Source: Phycisphaerales bacterium (GTDB lineage: Bacteria; Planctomycetota; Phycisphaerae; Phycisphaerales; SM1A02). Taken from it: 64,000 bases of DNA. This document shows, piece after piece, positions 39,541-49,604 of this stretch. Positions within the stretch are counted from its first letter, which is position 1. Each line of letters begins with the position of its first letter. The DNA is taken from contig SIAR01000001.1 of assembly GCA_009691705.1 (NCBI GenBank), forward strand, positions 1 through 64,000. Direction: 5' to 3'. The position numbers and the translations under genes are program-made. The notes under the pieces are model-generated. The model saw only the letters and a program-made list of their open reading frames with translations, ran no database searches and was not told the DNA's origin.

Positions 39541-42501
39541 ATGCGCCTCTACCTCACCCTGATTCTGACCATTGGTCTCATCACTCTTCACTGCGAAGTC
39601 AACGCAATTCCTGAAAAGAACATGGGGCGCGCAGAGCGGATTTCAACACGTGCCGTAAAGGCGCCCCTGCCGCACGAAGTAGTTGCCAAGGACGCACGCA
39701 GATTGGTAATGCCGATCGACAGCGCGCGCGGAACTCCACAGCACACTGGTCGACTCATTGTGATGTTTGATCCCAATCAGACCGTGCGCGCGCCAAGAAC
39801 TGCGAGCAATGAACTCTTCAGTCTCAATGGTGTCGACCTCGCCCAATCAACGGCGCTGTTGGCGAAGTATGGCGCAACCATTCGTCAGGCAATCAATGCC
39901 GATCCAGTGATGCTTGCCGATCTGCGCAGTCGTGCAGAATCGCGGAGCAACAAACCGATGCCTGACTTGGCTTCGATGATGTATCTCGAGGGGATCGCAC
40001 CAAGCCAACTGCTCGGTGCCGCGCGCGAGTTTCTTGCGCTCGGTGAAGTCGTGTGGGTCGAGATCGAAGCCAAGACACAACTCTCGCAGGGTACGCCCTA
40101 CTGCGCCTCATGCGGAGCTGGCCAGGGCTGCACGTCACTTCCGTGCAACTATCCACACCCTGGCACCGTCACGGTTGGGGGAGGCCCAGTTGGATACTGC
40201 TCAGACCAAGCGACTTGCACCCTCGTAATCACAATTCGGCCAGGGTGCGCAACCTCTTGGGATGAAGTTTGCGCGACACTTGCGAACCTGCTCGGTCCAT
40301 CCGCATTCGGCGGCGCTAGCACCTACGACACGTGCCTTCAGCCTCAATCGGATCCACCACCACCATTTAATCAACCTTGGTCGCCGCTCGAAGAGTCGTT
40401 GATGCTTCAGACTTCGCCATTCATTGCACATACAATTCCTGGATCGATCAACTCAGATTGCTGCAGAGCCGTCTGCTTCGAGGATGTGACCTGTTGCACA
40501 ATCGCTTGGGACGCTGACTGCGCATCCCTTGCAATCGGTTTCTACGACGACTGCTACTCGACGGCTGGCTACACGGTTCCAGGTGGCAGCGGTAATCCAC
40601 AAACTCCAAACCCGCAAGCGCCGTCGCCTCTATTCGATGCGACGATGCTCGAAGAACCACCGCCGCCGGAAGCGGCGCCGGGGAGTGCCCCACTCGCCCT
40701 TTACACAACTGCGCAACGGGCGCCAAATCCCTACACAGGACCTAATCCGCCACCGGCTGATTTCGGACCTTTCACGACCTTCGCATCGGTCACGGGTTTT
40801 CGTGGTGGCGGCATTGACATCGATGCCATCGTGGCTCTGCTCGAACAGTTTCCTGGAACGAACGGACCTCAACTGTCGCGAATCAAGATCGCACTCGTTG
40901 AGCCCTCTGCTCTTGTGAACCACGAGGACCTGATTGACCCAGTGACCGGGCTCACGAAGATCACGGTTGAATCAGGGCAGACGCCTCTGATCATCAATGA
41001 TCAGACATCGCCTCCACCGACTTTTTCTGGATCATTCGACACCGCTCCCGCCCACGGAACTGCCTCTCTAGGAGTTCTCTTTGCCAATGCCAACAGCATT
41101 GGAGTGACCGGAATTGTGCCAGACGCCGACGCGTACTTCTTTCCAACCGAGTCGTTCGAAGAGAATGGTCGGACACTGACCGCGATGACAAACGCAGTCA
41201 ATCTGCTTTCAGCAGTCACGAGTGCGGATCCGAATCCTGGAAACATCATTGTGATGCCGGTCGCCGAGTTGAATCAACCACTCAACACAGTCCAATCGCG
41301 TGCAACGATCATTGAGATTGGACTTGGTCTCGGGGTCACTTTTGTTCTCGCGGCAGGCAACGGCGCCCAAGAGGTGAATGCGCCTATTACAGGCACTGAC
41401 CTGGCAATTGTCGTCGGAGGCGTTTGGCCTGGATTTCAGGCGATTGTCGCCCCCCCTGGCGCAACGGTTTATCCCATCGGGCTGAACTACTGCCGCACGG
41501 GCATTAGCAACTACTCTACCCGCGTGACGGTCTCTGGGTGGGGTTCTGGGGTTTGCACCCTGGGTTATGGCGATCTCTTCTGCGGGACGAGCGGTCCGGT
41601 CTCGACTAATCCAGCCGTTGCGCAGTACGAAGTGAATCGCTTGCGTTCATACACAGCGGCTTGGGGTGGAACGAGTGCTGCTACCGCGCAGATTGGTGGG
41701 GTGGTTGGCCTCATTCAGGCCCTCGCGAAACAGGTCTACGAAGGACAGCCCTTCAGCCCTGAGAACATGAACGAACTCTTGCGCGATCCAAACAACATCT
41801 ATCCACAGTGTGGACTGACACTGAACGATCGTCCGGGTTTTATAACAGCTGGCTATGGCGACACGGTGAGTAACGGGACTCAGGCGCCAGTTGCTGGCTT
41901 CCCAAACATGCGCCGCCTTGGGGTTTCAACAATCAACGGCGATTTTTACGACGGCAACCAATCGACCTTTAAGATCGTTTGCGGCACACTAGTTTCAGGG
42001 ACGCAATTCAGCATTCGTGACTCGGACCAAAAGTATGTCAAGGCTCGAACCGCCCGTCCACGGGGCAGTCAGTCATCGTCGGGACTTGGACCACCGCTGG
42101 TGTATCCACCTTCTGCTCGCATCTTGGATGTTCAAGTCATTCGCACGACTGACCTTGCTGTTCCTGCCGACCTCGAGCGCGTCTCTGTCTCTGTAACCGG
42201 GCGCGCCTCGAGTGTGGGAAGCGCCCTTGTGATGGTGTTTCTGTACGACGGCGCGATGAACCGATGGAAATTCCTTCCTCCCTTTGCCGCGACGTTCACA
42301 ACGGTGGATCAGACCTTGCAATTCACCATCGGCGCGTGCGCAACTCCTGCGAGTTATGCCTACAGCGACGGCGGAGTCAAAATGGCAGCGCGCGTTGTTG
42401 TCTTCCCACTAGGCGGCCTCGGCCAGACTCAGATTTGGCTTGACCAAGTGCTGATTAACTACAACTCCGACCTCATCCTTGTTCCCCCTCCTTGCCCATG
42501 A
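39541..42501 (+). CDS. Secreted subtilisin-like (S8-type) protein with catalytic Asp replaced by Glu
   Basis: 986 residues with a signal peptide (cleavage near 'NA|IPEK'). Residues about 180-360 form a Cys-rich region with 'CATSWDEVCATLA' and 'CCRAVCFEDVTCCTIAWDADC', repeats of a CC...WD..C type known from planctomycete exoproteins. The S8 fold follows: 'IKIALVEPSALVNHEDL' (where Asp is expected, Glu454 stands), 'AHGTASLGVLFA' (His505), 'LAAGNGAQ' (oxyanion Asn607) and 'GGTSAATAQIGGVVGLI' (Ser712). The C-terminal 200 residues look like a beta sandwich. So three of four key positions are intact. It might be a peptidase with a Glu relay or a pseudo-enzyme. First of four exoprotein genes in a row; GGAG precedes the ATG. 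Confidence 0.75.
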   Translation: MRLYLTLILTIGLITLHCEVNAIPEKNMGRAERISTRAVKAPLPHEVVAKDARRLVMPIDSARGTPQHTGRLIVMFDPNQTVRAPRTASNELFSLNGVDLAQSTALLAKYGATIRQAINADPVMLADLRSRAESRSNKPMPDLASMMYLEGIAPSQLLGAAREFLALGEVVWVEIEAKTQLSQGTPYCASCGAGQGCTSLPCNYPHPGTVTVGGGPVGYCSDQATCTLVITIRPGCATSWDEVCATLANLLGPSAFGGASTYDTCLQPQSDPPPPFNQPWSPLEESLMLQTSPFIAHTIPGSINSDCCRAVCFEDVTCCTIAWDADCASLAIGFYDDCYSTAGYTVPGGSGNPQTPNPQAPSPLFDATMLEEPPPPEAAPGSAPLALYTTAQRAPNPYTGPNPPPADFGPFTTFASVTGFRGGGIDIDAIVALLEQFPGTNGPQLSRIKIALVEPSALVNHEDLIDPVTGLTKITVESGQTPLIINDQTSPPPTFSGSFDTAPAHGTASLGVLFANANSIGVTGIVPDADAYFFPTESFEENGRTLTAMTNAVNLLSAVTSADPNPGNIIVMPVAELNQPLNTVQSRATIIEIGLGLGVTFVLAAGNGAQEVNAPITGTDLAIVVGGVWPGFQAIVAPPGATVYPIGLNYCRTGISNYSTRVTVSGWGSGVCTLGYGDLFCGTSGPVSTNPAVAQYEVNRLRSYTAAWGGTSAATAQIGGVVGLIQALAKQVYEGQPFSPENMNELLRDPNNIYPQCGLTLNDRPGFITAGYGDTVSNGTQAPVAGFPNMRRLGVSTINGDFYDGNQSTFKIVCGTLVSGTQFSIRDSDQKYVKARTARPRGSQSSSGLGPPLVYPPSARILDVQVIRTTDLAVPADLERVSVSVTGRASSVGSALVMVFLYDGAMNRWKFLPPFAATFTTVDQTLQFTIGACATPASYAYSDGGVKMAARVVVFPLGGLGQTQIWLDQVLINYNSDLILVPPPCP

Positions 42502-42701: not shown

Positions 42702-45700
42702 ATGAAAACTGCCACCTATTCAATGATCGCATTGACTTGTCTGACGCTGACCTCACTCTCGATCGCCACGACTGGGTCGGGACGTGGGAAGGGCGCGACG
42801 CGCGCCACCCCGATGCCAACCAAGATCGCGCAAGCAATCGATGGCATGCAGGCCGAGTCGAAGGCTGCACGCACGCTTCCACAGCTCGGAGTGAGTCGCG
42901 CTGACCTATCTGCGCTCGGGCGCGCGGGTGGTGCATCCCCCAACGTGACTGCTGAGACCATTCGATCGCTAAAGGTTGGCGATCAGATGCTCTTCGCAAC
43001 CACTGATGGCACCGTGCTCGATCTAGTTGTCTCGCGCCGTGGATGGACCGGCGCAGATGAGAAACAAATCTACTTCAGTAGCGGTGAGACGGGGAATGCC
43101 ATCTACGGAATCATTTCGCAAGTTGGCCCTCGCTTGACTGGGTATTTTCTTGCGCGCAGTGGCGTTTCGTACGCGTTGTCAGCGCTACCCGAGAGCGGTT
43201 ACCAGTTGACCGTTCGTCCAAACTACGGGGCGCTTGAGTGTGGTGTCGACCGTGTTCGACCAGCGAATCCAAATGCAATGGGAGATCCGATCCAAGCGCA
43301 GGGTGGCTTGGCTGGTGGTATGACCCCCTGTCCTCCTGAGGTGATCCCTTTCGAGATTCCCGCTGGACTTCGGCGAGACGGCGGAATCATCATCGACGTG
43401 CTCTTTGTCTTCTCGGTCGATGCCAATGATGCTGTGGTTGCCAGCGGATCGACGGTGTATGACCAGGCCGTTCTTACGGTCGCGCAAGCGAATGTGGCGC
43501 TCAAGAACTCTACCGGTCAAGGCGCGACAACATTCAATGGTCAAGACGCAGACAACCAACTCAACACCCAGTGCGGCTACGGCGTGTATCCCGCTCCAGG
43601 TGCTGCAGCATTCACAACCCCGCCCACGAGCCCAATCTCTTGCGGAGCGGATCCGATCAATCCGGCCACGGTCTCAGCACACGAAGCACGAGCTGGCGTG
43701 ACTCCTGCCGAGAGCGATGTCTGCACGCCACGGCTTCGTCTCGTTGGTGCACTCGTCGCGGACGGTTTCTTCGGTCAAGAGGAACCATTCGTGAGCACTG
43801 GACAAGGAGTCGATCTCACCCGTCTCGAGAACTACAACGATGGAATCCTCGACTACGTGCAGACGTGGCGTGACGCCCTCGGCGCAGACTCGGTCGCTCT
43901 CGTCGGCATGGGCTACGGCTCAGATAGCGCGTTCGTCGGACTCGCAAGCGTCATGAATGATGCGAACAACGGCGCACAAGGAATTGCGGGGCTTTCGATT
44001 CCAGCGAATCCTCATCCCATTGTCGATACGGCCGCGGGTGCACTTGGACCTTCGAGCGTTTCGACGCTTCAGGCTTTTTCTGAGTCGCCATACTGTCTGC
44101 TCGACTATACGATTCTGGGCGACCTCACGTACGCGCACGAACTTGGCCACAACTTTGGTTGCCAACACGATCATGATGCGCCAAGCGCTGCGCCACAGGA
44201 TGCACTCTTTCCCGATTCGTTCGGATTCGGCGACGACAACTTTCGAACCGTGATGGCCTATGCAGCTGGAGGAAACGTGCGTTTGCCTGGATTCTCGAAC
44301 CCTGAGAAGACGTGGGCGGACTACGAGGGACCGGACAACGCAAACACTGCAGCCGGTCTCGAATTCGACTTTGACTGCAGTGCGATTTCTCCAGATGGTC
44401 TGGGCACCCATGCTCAATACGTTCCGGGAAGTGGCGTTGGTCCGGGCGACTGCGATCAAGAGGGAGATGACGATCCGAGTTCGCCAGCAGCGATGGTGAT
44501 CGCGTCGGATGTCACCATCGACGATGCGGGGCAAGAGTGCGCGAACAATGCGCGCTCGATTTCTCAAGCGAAATTCGATTTTGCACGGTTTCGCTGCAGC
44601 ATCTTCCCAGTCGCTGACTGCAACAACAATCTCATTGATGACTTTGTTGAGGCTCTCGATGGCACCAACGATGATTGTGATTCGAACGGCATTCCCGATG
44701 ATTGCGAAACAGCTCAGGAAGATCCCGGCATTCCAAGCCCGATCGATTGCAACCAGAATCAGATCCCCGACGCGTGCGACATCGCGAACGGTGAGAGCCA
44801 GGACACGAATGCCAACAGCATTCCCGACGAATGTGAAGACCAGAGCCTGCTCTTTCGCGAGAACTTTGAAACGATCGCGCTGGGAACACACGATGGCGCG
44901 CTACCTATCGCCAAAGTGTCAGCCGAAGCGCTTGCGCAGATTCGCCTAACGGACCCAGACTTTCCAGATTACTTCGCGACGATCGAGACGAGCGATATGA
45001 ATCCCGATCCAACGGACACCGGCTTTATCTTCACCGACATCATTCCGTCGCTGTTTCAGTACGGGCTCGGCCGAAATGGGAATCTGGTCCTCAACGGTGC
45101 TTTGGGGCAGGGATTCGCGATTGCCTTCGGTTCGCGCGGCTATGGACAGCGACTGAGTTTCAACTCCGTAACGGGCGATTTTCCGTCGGGTAACGGGTTT
45201 ACGACCATTGTTTGCGCGCGCTCCATTACGGAGTGCCGCCTGTACATCAATGCGGCTGACTTTGAGGATCATTTCGCTGCGAATCCCCCTCTGCCACAAC
45301 TCGCCAACTTCGGCTATCTCGAAGAGAATCTCGTCACCGTTCAGGGCATCGACATTGACGATGCCACTGGTGCCGAAGTCGTAGTCTTCCAACAATCATT
45401 CGATCTCAGAACGATCGAGACTCCAGCCGTGCCGAGCGGACTTCAGTTTGTTCGCATCGCTGCTGCGGTGGGTGATCCCGCAATCGTCTTTGACAAGATC
45501 GCGATCACTGGAGCGTTCGTTGCCATGGATAATGTCTCGTTTGATCGCGGACAGATCTTTGCCGAGTGCATCGCTGACATCGCCGGTGGCATTCCCATCG
45601 GCGGGGTCCCAACCCCCGATGGTCGGGTTGGCGCTGAAGACTTACTGCTCATTCTTGCCGCATTTGACGCGGCAAACCCAGTCGATCCGACCGATCCAAT

Positions 45701-45806
45701 CGCAGTGCTTGCCGATGTCAACGATGACGGCTTTGTCGATGCGTCCGATTTGCTCGAGATTCTCTCGAGCTTTGGCAACTGCCCAGGCGGCGTCGCCGGT
45801 CCGTAA
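42702..45806 (+). CDS. Secreted reprolysin-type metalloprotease with Ca-binding repeats and dockerin-like tail
   Basis: 1034 residues with a Sec signal peptide. After a roughly 200-residue N-terminal region comes a metzincin domain: zinc site 'HELGHNFGCQHDHD' at residue 479 (HExxHxxGxxHD) and a Met-turn 'RTVMAYAAG'. All three His and the catalytic Glu are present, so it should be active on protein outside the cell. Next come Asp/Asn-rich repeats ('DCNNNLIDDFVEALDGTNDD', 'CDSNGIPDDCE', 'DTNANSIPDECED') of the thrombospondin type-3 kind, a beta-rich domain of about 230 residues, and a C-terminal pair of EF-hand-like loops ('TPDGRVGAEDLLLILAAF', 'DVNDDGFVDASDLLEIL'), a dockerin-like module. No cohesin is in the window. 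It has its own promoter. Confidence 0.85.
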   Translation: MKTATYSMIALTCLTLTSLSIATTGSGRGKGATRATPMPTKIAQAIDGMQAESKAARTLPQLGVSRADLSALGRAGGASPNVTAETIRSLKVGDQMLFATTDGTVLDLVVSRRGWTGADEKQIYFSSGETGNAIYGIISQVGPRLTGYFLARSGVSYALSALPESGYQLTVRPNYGALECGVDRVRPANPNAMGDPIQAQGGLAGGMTPCPPEVIPFEIPAGLRRDGGIIIDVLFVFSVDANDAVVASGSTVYDQAVLTVAQANVALKNSTGQGATTFNGQDADNQLNTQCGYGVYPAPGAAAFTTPPTSPISCGADPINPATVSAHEARAGVTPAESDVCTPRLRLVGALVADGFFGQEEPFVSTGQGVDLTRLENYNDGILDYVQTWRDALGADSVALVGMGYGSDSAFVGLASVMNDANNGAQGIAGLSIPANPHPIVDTAAGALGPSSVSTLQAFSESPYCLLDYTILGDLTYAHELGHNFGCQHDHDAPSAAPQDALFPDSFGFGDDNFRTVMAYAAGGNVRLPGFSNPEKTWADYEGPDNANTAAGLEFDFDCSAISPDGLGTHAQYVPGSGVGPGDCDQEGDDDPSSPAAMVIASDVTIDDAGQECANNARSISQAKFDFARFRCSIFPVADCNNNLIDDFVEALDGTNDDCDSNGIPDDCETAQEDPGIPSPIDCNQNQIPDACDIANGESQDTNANSIPDECEDQSLLFRENFETIALGTHDGALPIAKVSAEALAQIRLTDPDFPDYFATIETSDMNPDPTDTGFIFTDIIPSLFQYGLGRNGNLVLNGALGQGFAIAFGSRGYGQRLSFNSVTGDFPSGNGFTTIVCARSITECRLYINAADFEDHFAANPPLPQLANFGYLEENLVTVQGIDIDDATGAEVVVFQQSFDLRTIETPAVPSGLQFVRIAAAVGDPAIVFDKIAITGAFVAMDNVSFDRGQIFAECIADIAGGIPIGGVPTPDGRVGAEDLLLILAAFDAANPVDPTDPIAVLADVNDDGFVDASDLLEILSSFGNCPGGVAGP

Positions 45807-45839: not shown

Positions 45840-47690
45840 ATGCTTACCTCGCTCTATCTCGCAACCGAACTTTTTCTACTTCAAAAGGGATCTGGTGACG
45901 CCGTTATCTCTGAACTAAAGCAAGACGCGGTCTTGGTCATCCGAGAAAGAGTCGAAGCGGGAGAGAGTGAGCGGCTCTCTGTGAGCACGCCGTTCTCAGC
46001 CGCTGGAATGCCTCCAGTGGGACTAGCTGAACTTCGGGCGATGGTGCAGCGATCCGCTGAGGTTGCTGATCGCCCCGCACTCTCGTTCATTGTTGATGAG
46101 ACCATTGGAGGTGAACCCAAGATTTTCAAGGGTGATGGGGACGAAGGCGGGATCGCTGGCCTCGACCTTGCATTCGACATCCAGTTTTCGGTGACGACTG
46201 ATTCGGCAATTCCCTCAGCCCAACTAGCAGAGTTCACCCAGGCTCTCGCCGATGTGGAGACGTATCTGGAATCGCAAATCGCGTCAGAAAACGTGACGCT
46301 GGTTTTTGAGATTGGATACGTGCCACTCAATCCCGGTCGACTTGGAGTGACGACGTGTCACTATTCAGTCGAACAGTACGAAACGATCGGTCAGGCAATC
46401 GTCTCGGCCGCCGATCTAGATGATGTTCAGTGCATGCCCGTGGCCACGACTGCGCCTGTGCGATACAGCGGAGTATCGATCGCAGTGACCCCTGAGAACC
46501 GCGTGTTTCTCCTTCGCTCTCTCAAGAAGGCGCTTGGAATTGCTGATGGCGGTGGACTTGGTGTGCCAACAACGGAGGGACGCATCACCATGAATTCGGC
46601 AATACAGTGGGACTTCGACCCATCCGATGGACTGACCATCGGCACGACCCTGCTCTACTCGTTTCAAGATCACCTGATTCGCGAACTCCTTCAGGGGCTT
46701 GGTTTCGTCGCCGGTGCAGACTTTCTGGTGCGTGATTGCACGATGATGGACCTGATTCGCTTTCAACGCGACGTCACCGACGAGCAGTGGCTCATCAACA
46801 GCAACACTGATGTCTTTGGTCCACCTCACCCTCCCGCTGCGGTCACCTGCGCTCAATTCTCAGCCATAGTGATTGGATTCATTAACGGTGGACAGCAGTT
46901 CCCGGGTTGGGCTCTTGATTACAACCCCGGACTCAATCGTGCCGCGATCGATGAGTACGCCGCGGTGCTGCTTGCCGCTGGCCAAGGTGCCGACATCGCC
47001 GCTGCTCGTGTGCTGGCGAGTACTGAAATGCTCACCGATGCGGGTGGACCAACGCCAACCCGCTACATGACCGACCAGATGTGCGGCAAACTCAACCTGT
47101 TTACTGGGCTTCCTGAGAGTGCATCTCAAGGCAACGTATTCGACGATGCGAGGCTCCCCGTGGCCGCGATCCCAGCGAACCAGAAGACCGCGTACCCCGA
47201 CGGGGCAACTCAGTCGCTCAAGTCCGTTACGGTGGGAGCGATCGCTGCGACCACTCGGTGCATCGCCGTCGATTTTCGTGAGAAGTCGTACACGCTAACA
47301 ACCGGGGTCACAGTGGTTGAGTTTCGCGGCGCGATGCCGCGCACTGTTGCTCGTAACACGCAATCAGACGCTTCAATCATAAATTTCCTTCAGGACACCG
47401 CGCGCCTGCCGAGTGACTTTGAGCTCGAGATGTTCGACGGATCGCCAGTGCGCGCATGCTTTATTTTGCAGAACGAACTCGCACCTGTTGGAACACGCTG
47501 CATCATGGGGGAGTCAATCGGCAAGGGAGTGACTTTTTACAGTCGTAACGCGCTGAACTCGTATGTGGCGCCACTGGGATTGCAACCAGATTTCGTCACG
47601 AGACGCGAACTGCTGCTTCTTGACACTCTGGGGTGGAAGATGACCGCAGCAGTGCTTGATGCGACTGACGAGGGTGATACGACCCACTGA
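45840..47690 (+). CDS. Inactivated metalloprotease-like protein (zinc motif lost)
   Basis: 616 residues. The layout recalls the secreted metalloproteases that NCBI groups as NF038122 (recalled, not checked): a beta-rich N-terminal half, a zinc helix, a 'DLxRF' block, and an end of 'xLLLDTLGW'. At the place of the zinc helix it has 'HLIRELLQGLGFVAGADF', where the family has HEIGHALGF: His to Arg at 281 and His to Gln at 285, with the Glu kept. The following 'CTMMDLIRFQRD' fits the family. So the fold seems kept but zinc binding lost. No convincing signal peptide: the N-terminus 'MLTSLYLATELFLLQKGSG' is only weakly hydrophobic. It starts 33 bp after the active metalloprotease gene. Confidence 0.65.
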   Translation: MLTSLYLATELFLLQKGSGDAVISELKQDAVLVIRERVEAGESERLSVSTPFSAAGMPPVGLAELRAMVQRSAEVADRPALSFIVDETIGGEPKIFKGDGDEGGIAGLDLAFDIQFSVTTDSAIPSAQLAEFTQALADVETYLESQIASENVTLVFEIGYVPLNPGRLGVTTCHYSVEQYETIGQAIVSAADLDDVQCMPVATTAPVRYSGVSIAVTPENRVFLLRSLKKALGIADGGGLGVPTTEGRITMNSAIQWDFDPSDGLTIGTTLLYSFQDHLIRELLQGLGFVAGADFLVRDCTMMDLIRFQRDVTDEQWLINSNTDVFGPPHPPAAVTCAQFSAIVIGFINGGQQFPGWALDYNPGLNRAAIDEYAAVLLAAGQGADIAAARVLASTEMLTDAGGPTPTRYMTDQMCGKLNLFTGLPESASQGNVFDDARLPVAAIPANQKTAYPDGATQSLKSVTVGAIAATTRCIAVDFREKSYTLTTGVTVVEFRGAMPRTVARNTQSDASIINFLQDTARLPSDFELEMFDGSPVRACFILQNELAPVGTRCIMGESIGKGVTFYSRNALNSYVAPLGLQPDFVTRRELLLLDTLGWKMTAAVLDATDEGDTTH

Positions 47691-47735
47691 ACTTTTTTTG
47701 AGGTACCCGCAGAGGCGCTTCTTGGCCTCGCGCCA

Positions 47736-47776
47736 AAAGCCGCTGACGACGGGTTCGTTAGCGGCTTTGTCGTTTT
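47736..47776 (+). terminator. Intrinsic terminator between the two inactivated metalloprotease-like genes
   Basis: AAAGCCGCTGACGA - CGGGT - TCGTTAGCGGCTTT, a 14-bp stem with one G-T pair, followed by GTCGTTTTC. The trailing T run is short but the stem is long; it should end the 42.7-47.7 kb transcript. Confidence 0.75.
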
Positions 47777-47791
47777 CTAACCGGGACGCGT

Positions 47792-47799
47792 GCTATATG
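47792..47799 (+). promoter_or_regulatory. Candidate extended -10 box for the next exoprotein
   Basis: TGCTATATG lies just after the terminator and about 25 bases before the next start codon. TGnTATATG is a plausible extended -10; no clear -35. Confidence 0.3.
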
Positions 47800-47822
47800 T
47801 CCGCTTTTGTTACTCTTGGATC

Positions 47823-49604
47823 ATGCCGAATTCACTTGCAACGTTTTCTCCTGCGATTGTGGTTCTCTGCTCGGGGTTGACCGCCGCCCCGCCGTCGACC
47901 GATGAGGTCCCGACGATTGTCCAATCCTCACCGGTGGTGCACGAGTGGGATTTTCCAGCGCGCGGGGCGAACTTTGGCGAGTCTGGGTCGGTGTGGATTC
48001 CGCTGATGGCTCCCGGCGCACCACAGATGAACCAGAAGCAGTTCGCAGAGTGCGTTTCCCAGATTCAGCGCACCCAAGCGCACGACGAAGTCGACGGCCA
48101 GGAGTTTGTTGTCACGAGCGGCGGCGATGGTGGAATTGCGAGTGGGTCAAATGTCATTTTCACAATCGGTTCGGTTCCTGTCGGCGTCGTGATACCTGTC
48201 ATTGCGGCAACACAACAGGTTGCGAACTATCTAAGCCTGGCGATTCTCACCCCGACGAATATCAACATCAAGTTGCAGTTTCAACCACTCGCCGCGGGAA
48301 TAGTCGCCACCGCAGCGCCGCGCATTTCTAGTCAACCCGTATCCCCTTCGCTCGCCAGCCTCATTAATTCTGGCCATTCAGGATCGCACCTCGACGATGC
48401 CCGTTTTCTCCCCAATCCCCCCGCCCCCTACGGCAGCGGTCCTGCGGCAAATTCTCGGCTTCGCGTTTTTTATTCGGCGTTGCAATCGAACGGAAACAAC
48501 CGCTACACCTCCGAAGATCGCATTTTCTGGACTGCAGCAAATCTGCGCGCAGCGTGGGTCTACACCCTCCCTGCACTCTCAGCATTCGACGGAACGATCA
48601 CCTTTACAACCAGCGCTGGCATCTTTAACAACTACGTGTTTGACCCATCGATCGTGCCATTTCCGGCTGCTGGCACTTCCTATCAGGACTGGCTGATTCG
48701 GGCGACGGCGATCACCATGGGATGGCTCTCAACCATTCAAACAAACCTTGTTGGCGACGTTGCCGTCTTTGACCTTTACCGATTTCGAAACGACATGCTT
48801 GCCGAGAACACAAACGGCATTCAGCCTGGTCCCTCGAGCCCAACCGACTTTGGATACCTCACGCAAGAACCATCGGCATTCAATTCTATTTTCGCAAACG
48901 TCGATTGCGATGACGTGACTCTTGCGATCGAACTCGCAATTGCAAATGCGACGAGTTACTCTGATCCACATCTTGGTTCCTTTGCTCCCGACTACAACCC
49001 CGGCGGGTATCGACAGTTTCGAACACTGCTTGCGTCGAGCGGTCCTTTCGTGACGATCAATGGCCAGTCGGCATTCGTCGCATCAAACTTTGGAACTCCG
49101 CTCGCAGGATTCTCGGCGTACGGCACGGCAGTTCGAAATCAGTTTGGTGGTAGCGGCATCATTGACGATGCCCAACTCGTTCCACCACCGGCGATGGCTC
49201 AGCGCACGCGGTACATCGACTGCAACATGCCCGGCTACGTAACCAATGGCGGCTATTGCTTCTTGATTGATTACAATCCAGTGTTCCCTGGTTACTACGG
49301 TCGCTCGGTTGTCCGCGGTCTCAACCTTCCGGATGGTGAACAGATTCTGAACTTCGTCACAGGACTCAACGGTTCGACGAGCGATAATTCGGGCAGTGGA
49401 GTCGACATGGAAGTTGCCGTGATGGATGACACGAATGCCGTAACTGGATTTCTGCTCAACCCAGCGCCTCCATTTCCACTGACGACTCCGTTCCTAATGG
49501 GTGGCGCGGCAATTCCAAGCGGATTCACCGCGTTCCCAACTTTCTTCTCACCAACCGAACTGAAAGTGCTTGATTCCATTGGTTGGGATGCCCCACAACC
49601 CTAA
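47823..49604 (+). CDS. Second inactivated metalloprotease-like protein
   Basis: 593 residues from the ATG of 'MPNSLATFSPAIVVLC', which begins a signal peptide; the track's start is 11 codons earlier. It has the same layout as the preceding gene, with low identity. At the zinc helix it reads 'WLIRATAITMGWLSTI', where HExxHxxGW would be expected: His293 is Arg, the Glu is Ala, and the second His is Ile. The DLxRF block follows as 'DVAVFDLYRFRND', and the C-terminus ends 'LKVLDSIGWDAP', like the active family. All visible zinc ligands and the catalytic Glu are gone, so it cannot be a protease by that mechanism. Probably a secreted binding protein evolved from one. Its end overlaps pgeF by 17 bp. 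Confidence 0.65.
   Translation: MPNSLATFSPAIVVLCSGLTAAPPSTDEVPTIVQSSPVVHEWDFPARGANFGESGSVWIPLMAPGAPQMNQKQFAECVSQIQRTQAHDEVDGQEFVVTSGGDGGIASGSNVIFTIGSVPVGVVIPVIAATQQVANYLSLAILTPTNINIKLQFQPLAAGIVATAAPRISSQPVSPSLASLINSGHSGSHLDDARFLPNPPAPYGSGPAANSRLRVFYSALQSNGNNRYTSEDRIFWTAANLRAAWVYTLPALSAFDGTITFTTSAGIFNNYVFDPSIVPFPAAGTSYQDWLIRATAITMGWLSTIQTNLVGDVAVFDLYRFRNDMLAENTNGIQPGPSSPTDFGYLTQEPSAFNSIFANVDCDDVTLAIELAIANATSYSDPHLGSFAPDYNPGGYRQFRTLLASSGPFVTINGQSAFVASNFGTPLAGFSAYGTAVRNQFGGSGIIDDAQLVPPPAMAQRTRYIDCNMPGYVTNGGYCFLIDYNPVFPGYYGRSVVRGLNLPDGEQILNFVTGLNGSTSDNSGSGVDMEVAVMDDTNAVTGFLLNPAPPFPLTTPFLMGGAAIPSGFTAFPTFFSPTELKVLDSIGWDAPQP

Follow-up and report, generated by a model that had tools for sequence, protein, structure and literature searches.

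Two zinc-less relatives of the NF038122 metalloproteases, inherited together with a dockerin-bearing M12B protease gene in planctomycetes

Gene content of the locus

The window (the whole stretch of 64,000 nucleotides that was analysed) encodes two large adjacent proteins, hereafter ORF1 and ORF2, whose reading frames and positions are those of the original prediction. As that prediction also had it, the pair directly follows an active metalloprotease gene: ORF1 begins 33 bases after an M12B gene carrying AHELGHNFGCQHDHD. The features are as follows.

39541..42501, + strand: subtilase (S8) gene; His motif HGT and Ser motif GTSA kept, the position of the catalytic Asp occupied by Glu (VEPSALVNHEDL); Pfam S8 E 5e-12
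42702..45806, + strand: M12B reprolysin-like metalloprotease, intact HExxHxxGxxH, C-terminal GC-type dockerin; Reprolysin_5 E 6.8e-12
45840..47690, + strand: ORF1, zinc-less NF038122 pseudoprotease, 616 aa (from profile match, tree and hhalign)
46680..46706, + strand: former zinc helix of ORF1, RELLQGLGF, residues 281-289
46773..47321, + strand: ~180-residue stretch of ORF1, absent from intact relatives (profile alignment)
47430..47462, + strand: position of the lost third ligand in ORF1, MFDGSPVRACF (Phe in place of the His seen in DGSPYQASHF)
47702..47768, + strand: conserved 3' element after ORF1, consisting of GGTACCCGCAGAGGC, a small hairpin and then a terminator-like hairpin (47736-47768)
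47823..49604, + strand: ORF2, the second of the zinc-less NF038122 pseudoproteases; alternative start at the GTG at 47790
48699..48725, + strand: former zinc helix of ORF2, RATAITMGW (profile alignment)

Judged from its orthologues, ORF2 likely starts at the ATG at 47823; read from the GTG, it would span 47790-49604 (604 aa). The dockerin of the M12B protein scored 28 bits against a cut-off of 29 in one dockerin_GC search and 31.9 bits in another. Because no terminator-like hairpin was found within the 33-base gap and a strong one lies 3' of ORF1, between ORF1 and ORF2, the M12B gene and ORF1 look like one unit and ORF2 like a second. Gene order in the genus is purD, subtilase, M12B with dockerin, ORF1, (ORF2), a PgeF-like gene (Cu-oxidase_4), VTT and sucC, and the core of this order is also kept in genomes G180 and G125.

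Relationship to the NF038122 family

Both proteins match the NCBIfam model NF038122 ('metallo_LGF'; ORF1: 61.5 bits, E 1.3e-16; ORF2: 41 bits, E 2.3e-10), in each case under the curated cut-off of 80 bits for membership as an enzyme, and a Pfam search returned no match for either. When whole lineages were compared, the ORF1 profile aligned with that of the intact NF038122 family at an hhalign probability of 100 (E 3.6e-40) and the ORF2 profile at 99.6 (E 3.8e-24), in agreement with the predicted kinship to a metalloprotease family. ORF1 and ORF2 are 24% identical over 359 aligned positions (BLASTP E 9e-07), and their profiles align at E 2.8e-38. On these alignments we consider common descent with NF038122 across the core to be beyond doubt, and both proteins to be divergent relatives of its metalloproteases. 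The fold is presumed from profile homology; AlphaFold2 models, built from shallow alignments (10 and 12 rows), reached pLDDT values of 36 and 32. No relative turned up in PDB sequence searches made with ORF1 alone, with an ORF1/ORF2 profile or with an intact relative, and no paper mentioning NF038122 was found in the literature collection searched.

The N-terminus of ORF1 reads as an atypical signal peptide, with no basic residue ahead of the hydrophobic stretch, and four Cys residues are kept in nearly all ORF1 orthologues. Based on the conserved Cys and the hydrophobic N-termini, export of both proteins is likely. ORF1 residues ~463-472 mark the spot at which other genomes carry extra modules.

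Loss of the zinc ligands

The intact relatives (n = 21) share exactly three invariant His residues, the pair of HExxH and a third in 'DGSPxQASHF', immediately ahead of IMDP; given its invariance, the third is presumably a zinc ligand. In profile alignments, RELLQGLGF (ORF1) and RATAITMGW (ORF2) are placed, as predicted, opposite HEVGHAMGF of the intact relatives (SFQDHLIRELLQGLGF is aligned to SFTDVLIHEVGHAMGF, and SYQDWLIRATAITMGW to the same segment). Neither protein retains HExxH, ORF1 reading RELLQ and ORF2 RATAI. At the three ligand positions, ORF1 has Arg, Gln and Phe. In ORF2, the two helix positions are Arg and Ile, and the third region lacks His. The ligand loss proposed from the helix thus stands; the third His (in SHF before IMDP), which the prediction had overlooked, is gone as well.

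Relocated histidine ligands were ruled out, since no His is invariant among the ORF1 orthologues or among the ORF2 orthologues. One ORF1 His, three residues before the Arg, is kept in nine of the ten genus orthologues, and no His of the ORF2 orthologues is conserved at 80% or more. As far as can be read from their sequences, ORF1 and ORF2 have lost the capacity for zinc-dependent cleavage.

Evolutionary history of the ligand loss

Complete ORF1 orthologues were identified in 10 genomes of the genus, including the source genome (identity 80% to about 47%), and complete ORF2 orthologues in four. HExxH is absent in 17 further homologues from three genera, and mutation in the source strain alone is rejected because close orthologues lack the motif too. 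Two other genera of the family have relatives: one is represented by G180, in which one ORF1-like gene adjoins one ORF2-like gene, and the other by G125 and its congener G124, G125 having two adjacent pseudoprotease genes. HExxH was kept in all other family members read in the order sample.

In the maximum-likelihood tree, all 19 proteins without HExxH fall on one side of a branch with 100/100 support and the 21 intact proteins on the other. On the former side, ORF1 groups with G180_A (97/97; G180_A is a long branch, which makes its placement less sure) and ORF2 with G180_B (100/99) in separate clades. The first His is replaced by Arg in 18 of the 19 pseudoprotease sequences, in both lineages, and the helix of G180_B, RQIVQSLGW, represents an in-between state; both observations agree with a single ancestral loss. 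Because the 19 proteins share one side of the 100/100 branch and the ORF1 and ORF2 clades span genera, the data are most simply explained by one early loss of the ligands followed by a tandem duplication, which would be old because ORF1-like and ORF2-like genes adjoin in another genus as well. Here our results depart from the original prediction, in which the two proteins had decayed differently: independent decay is rejected by the tree and the shared Arg.

Loss of the first His is not confined to this group: a distant relative in the phylum sample (G703, L236) reads REIGHGLGF at the zinc helix, a separate loss. This protein has a long C-terminal part with a stretch that appears von Willebrand-A-like by eye.

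Selective constraint

Both frames have remained open under constraint, as had been proposed, with dN/dS values of 0.06-0.09 for each ORF (NG86; source genome, G021 and G008), similar to those of sucC (0.05-0.09) and below those of PgeF (0.17-0.25), although dS is near saturation and the values are rough. Catalytic residues lost throughout the orthologues and purifying selection on the frame together characterize pseudoenzymes, and we regard ORF1 and ORF2 as long-established pseudoproteases, the catalytic loss being read from sequence. The best-conserved window of ORF1 consists of the 36 residues surrounding the former zinc helix (mean pairwise identity 0.81 vs 0.51), whereas the corresponding segment of ORF2 is not specially conserved. 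Because the helix window is the most conserved one only in ORF1, this suggests that the old cleft of ORF1 still does something and that the use of ORF2 has diverged.

Co-inheritance with the M12B gene

Of 181 family genomes, 15 have the M12B orthologue, and exactly these 15 have the pseudoproteases (Fisher p 3e-22, kinship ignored), two of the 15 being counted through fragments (G024, at contig ends; G007, decayed). In two congeners, G018 and G022, PgeF directly follows the subtilase with a clean join, and M12B, ORF1 and ORF2 are all absent. The M12B motif HExxHxxGxxH is intact in all orthologues covering it, except the decayed copy of G007 (L064), which reads HKLGH and runs out of frame into the ORF1 C-terminus; we read this as joint decay of M12B and ORF1, although the junction could be an assembly error. 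Intact NF038122 members are not tied to M12B, which is found in three of their six carriers. In several genomes whose locus is complete (e.g., G020, G011, G010, G017), ORF2 is absent, and these absences, together with the terminator-like hairpin between the two genes, indicate that it is dispensable to the M12B-ORF1 pair. Based on this linkage, we argue that the M12B protease and the pseudoproteases serve a common task.

Possible roles of the pseudoproteases

The roles first envisaged were inhibitor, binding protein or surface structure, and the linkage narrows these towards a partner of the M12B protease. Homology, ligand loss, purifying constraint, co-inheritance and joint loss, all of them observed, are best accommodated if ORF1 and ORF2 are non-catalytic partners of the M12B-dockerin protease, to which we give an even chance; co-inheritance also fits a common task without contact. 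In such a history, an NF038122 zinc protease would have lost its three His ligands once, early in the group, and a tandem duplication of the ligand-less gene would have preceded the split of the sampled genera. The products, most likely exported, may bind protein through the remodelled cleft and the variable module near ORF1 residue 465, and would either modulate the upstream M12B-dockerin metalloprotease or bring substrate to it. A precedent for a pseudoprotease partner of a metalloprotease is iRhom2/ADAM17 (PMC11248996), and a role as decoy or accessory protein has been proposed for inactive ADAM-like zincins (PMC3650047).

The main rival is a surface scaffold or adhesin, in which the dead protease fold would display variable modules beside the M12B protease without acting with it. 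ORF1-like and ORF2-like proteins do carry different modules, all inserted in one C-terminal region: ~200 aa of repeats in ORF1 of G017 and G019, >250 aa of propeller-like repeats in G180_B and an unrelated stretch of ~180 aa in G180_A. The four Cys of ORF1 also suggest an extracytoplasmic place. However, perfect co-occurrence with M12B across the 181 genomes and joint loss would be unexpected for an unrelated adhesin, and family searches (NCBIfam, Pfam) found no anchor or sorting signal, which leaves this reading rather unlikely. The repeats of G017 (L013) and G019 (L014) are T/A/G-rich, of the type 'YxIxTxGTTDFTxxGAxSNTxGxxFTATGxGxGTGTA', and had no match in Pfam, NCBIfam or PHROGs.

Gene adjacency and co-inheritance would also be expected of dedicated substrates processed by M12B, and perhaps also by the subtilase, but such a role leaves the high conservation of the former active-site segment of ORF1 unexplained, and we consider it improbable. 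ORF1 and ORF2 could also be cryptic enzymes with a new activity that dispenses with the HExxH zinc site, acting through retained polar residues such as Arg281, Glu282 and Gln285 of ORF1, which are invariant across the ten genus orthologues. ORF2, however, lacks the Glu and the Gln, no His is invariant in either set of orthologues, and we know of no metal-free catalysis in zincins, so that a cryptic activity appears very improbable. Least credible of all are decaying pseudogenes, functionless remnants to which the lost catalytic residues and the decayed copy in G007 might point: frames open in three genera, the low dN/dS and the conserved gene order contradict them. With the partnership with M12B as the preferred reading, gene order, co-occurrence and joint loss in natural genomes single out one candidate partner for the inactive paralogues, so that as few as two or three purified proteins would suffice to test the question.

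Comparison with known systems

ORF1 and ORF2 resemble NF038122 metalloproteases in their homology over the HExxH-containing core, which in the G124/G125 pseudoproteases covers the entire protein up to the (F/L)D-x-(I/L)GW at the C-terminus. They differ in having lost the three His ligands, in scoring under the cut-off and in carrying ~180 additional residues ahead of the region of the former third ligand. Zincins inactivated by conserved substitutions are already known, and it is the linkage of the pseudoproteases to M12B that is new here. In the CLCA/ADAM pseudoproteases, the HExxH substitution is likewise evolutionarily conserved, and the change of the first His to Arg is among those over-represented in inactive zincins, the roles of which were described as not well understood (PMC3650047); these proteins belong to another family, whereas those described here are bacterial, tied to one active protease gene and duplicated in tandem. 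The iRhom2-ADAM17 pair (PMC11248996) works in a comparable way, a pseudoprotease serving an active metalloprotease, but has a rhomboid membrane fold and unrelated sequence, and the interaction proposed here is putative.

For freshwater CL500-3 planctomycetes, a 'planctosome' that resembles the cellulosome and includes M12B endopeptidases with dockerins has been hypothesised (PMC6461901). The gene upstream of ORF1 is of the same dockerin-bearing, M12B Reprolysin_4-like type, a likeness of gene features, and the planctosome passages of that paper do not describe pseudoproteases. Named records matching the genus are planctomycete MAGs, of which two are Phycisphaerales from deep Lake Baikal and others are probably freshwater. 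We tentatively suggest, as a possibility somewhat short of even, that zinc-less zincins regulate or feed a dockerin-carrying M12B protease within an extracellular peptide-degrading complex of freshwater planctomycetes, which would add candidate components to the machinery proposed for peptide degradation in lake planctomycetes. Pfam Cohesin had no match in 19 genus genomes, a search that a divergent cohesin would escape; the source genome (G000) has 27 dockerin_GC matches and no Pfam cohesin match.

Other conserved features of the locus

The 3' element has no Rfam match. It follows ORF1 in eight genomes and is present as a single copy in the source genome, whereas none was detected in G010, in G014 or at the sites without ORF1. 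In it, GGTACCCGC precedes the small hairpin, which shows changes that keep the pairs, and the terminator-like hairpin comes last. The Glu at the catalytic Asp position of the subtilase occurs in all nine cassette orthologues aligned, plus G008, G024, G019 and G016. It is common to the genus and G180 orthologues, and more distant relatives have Asp or Glu.
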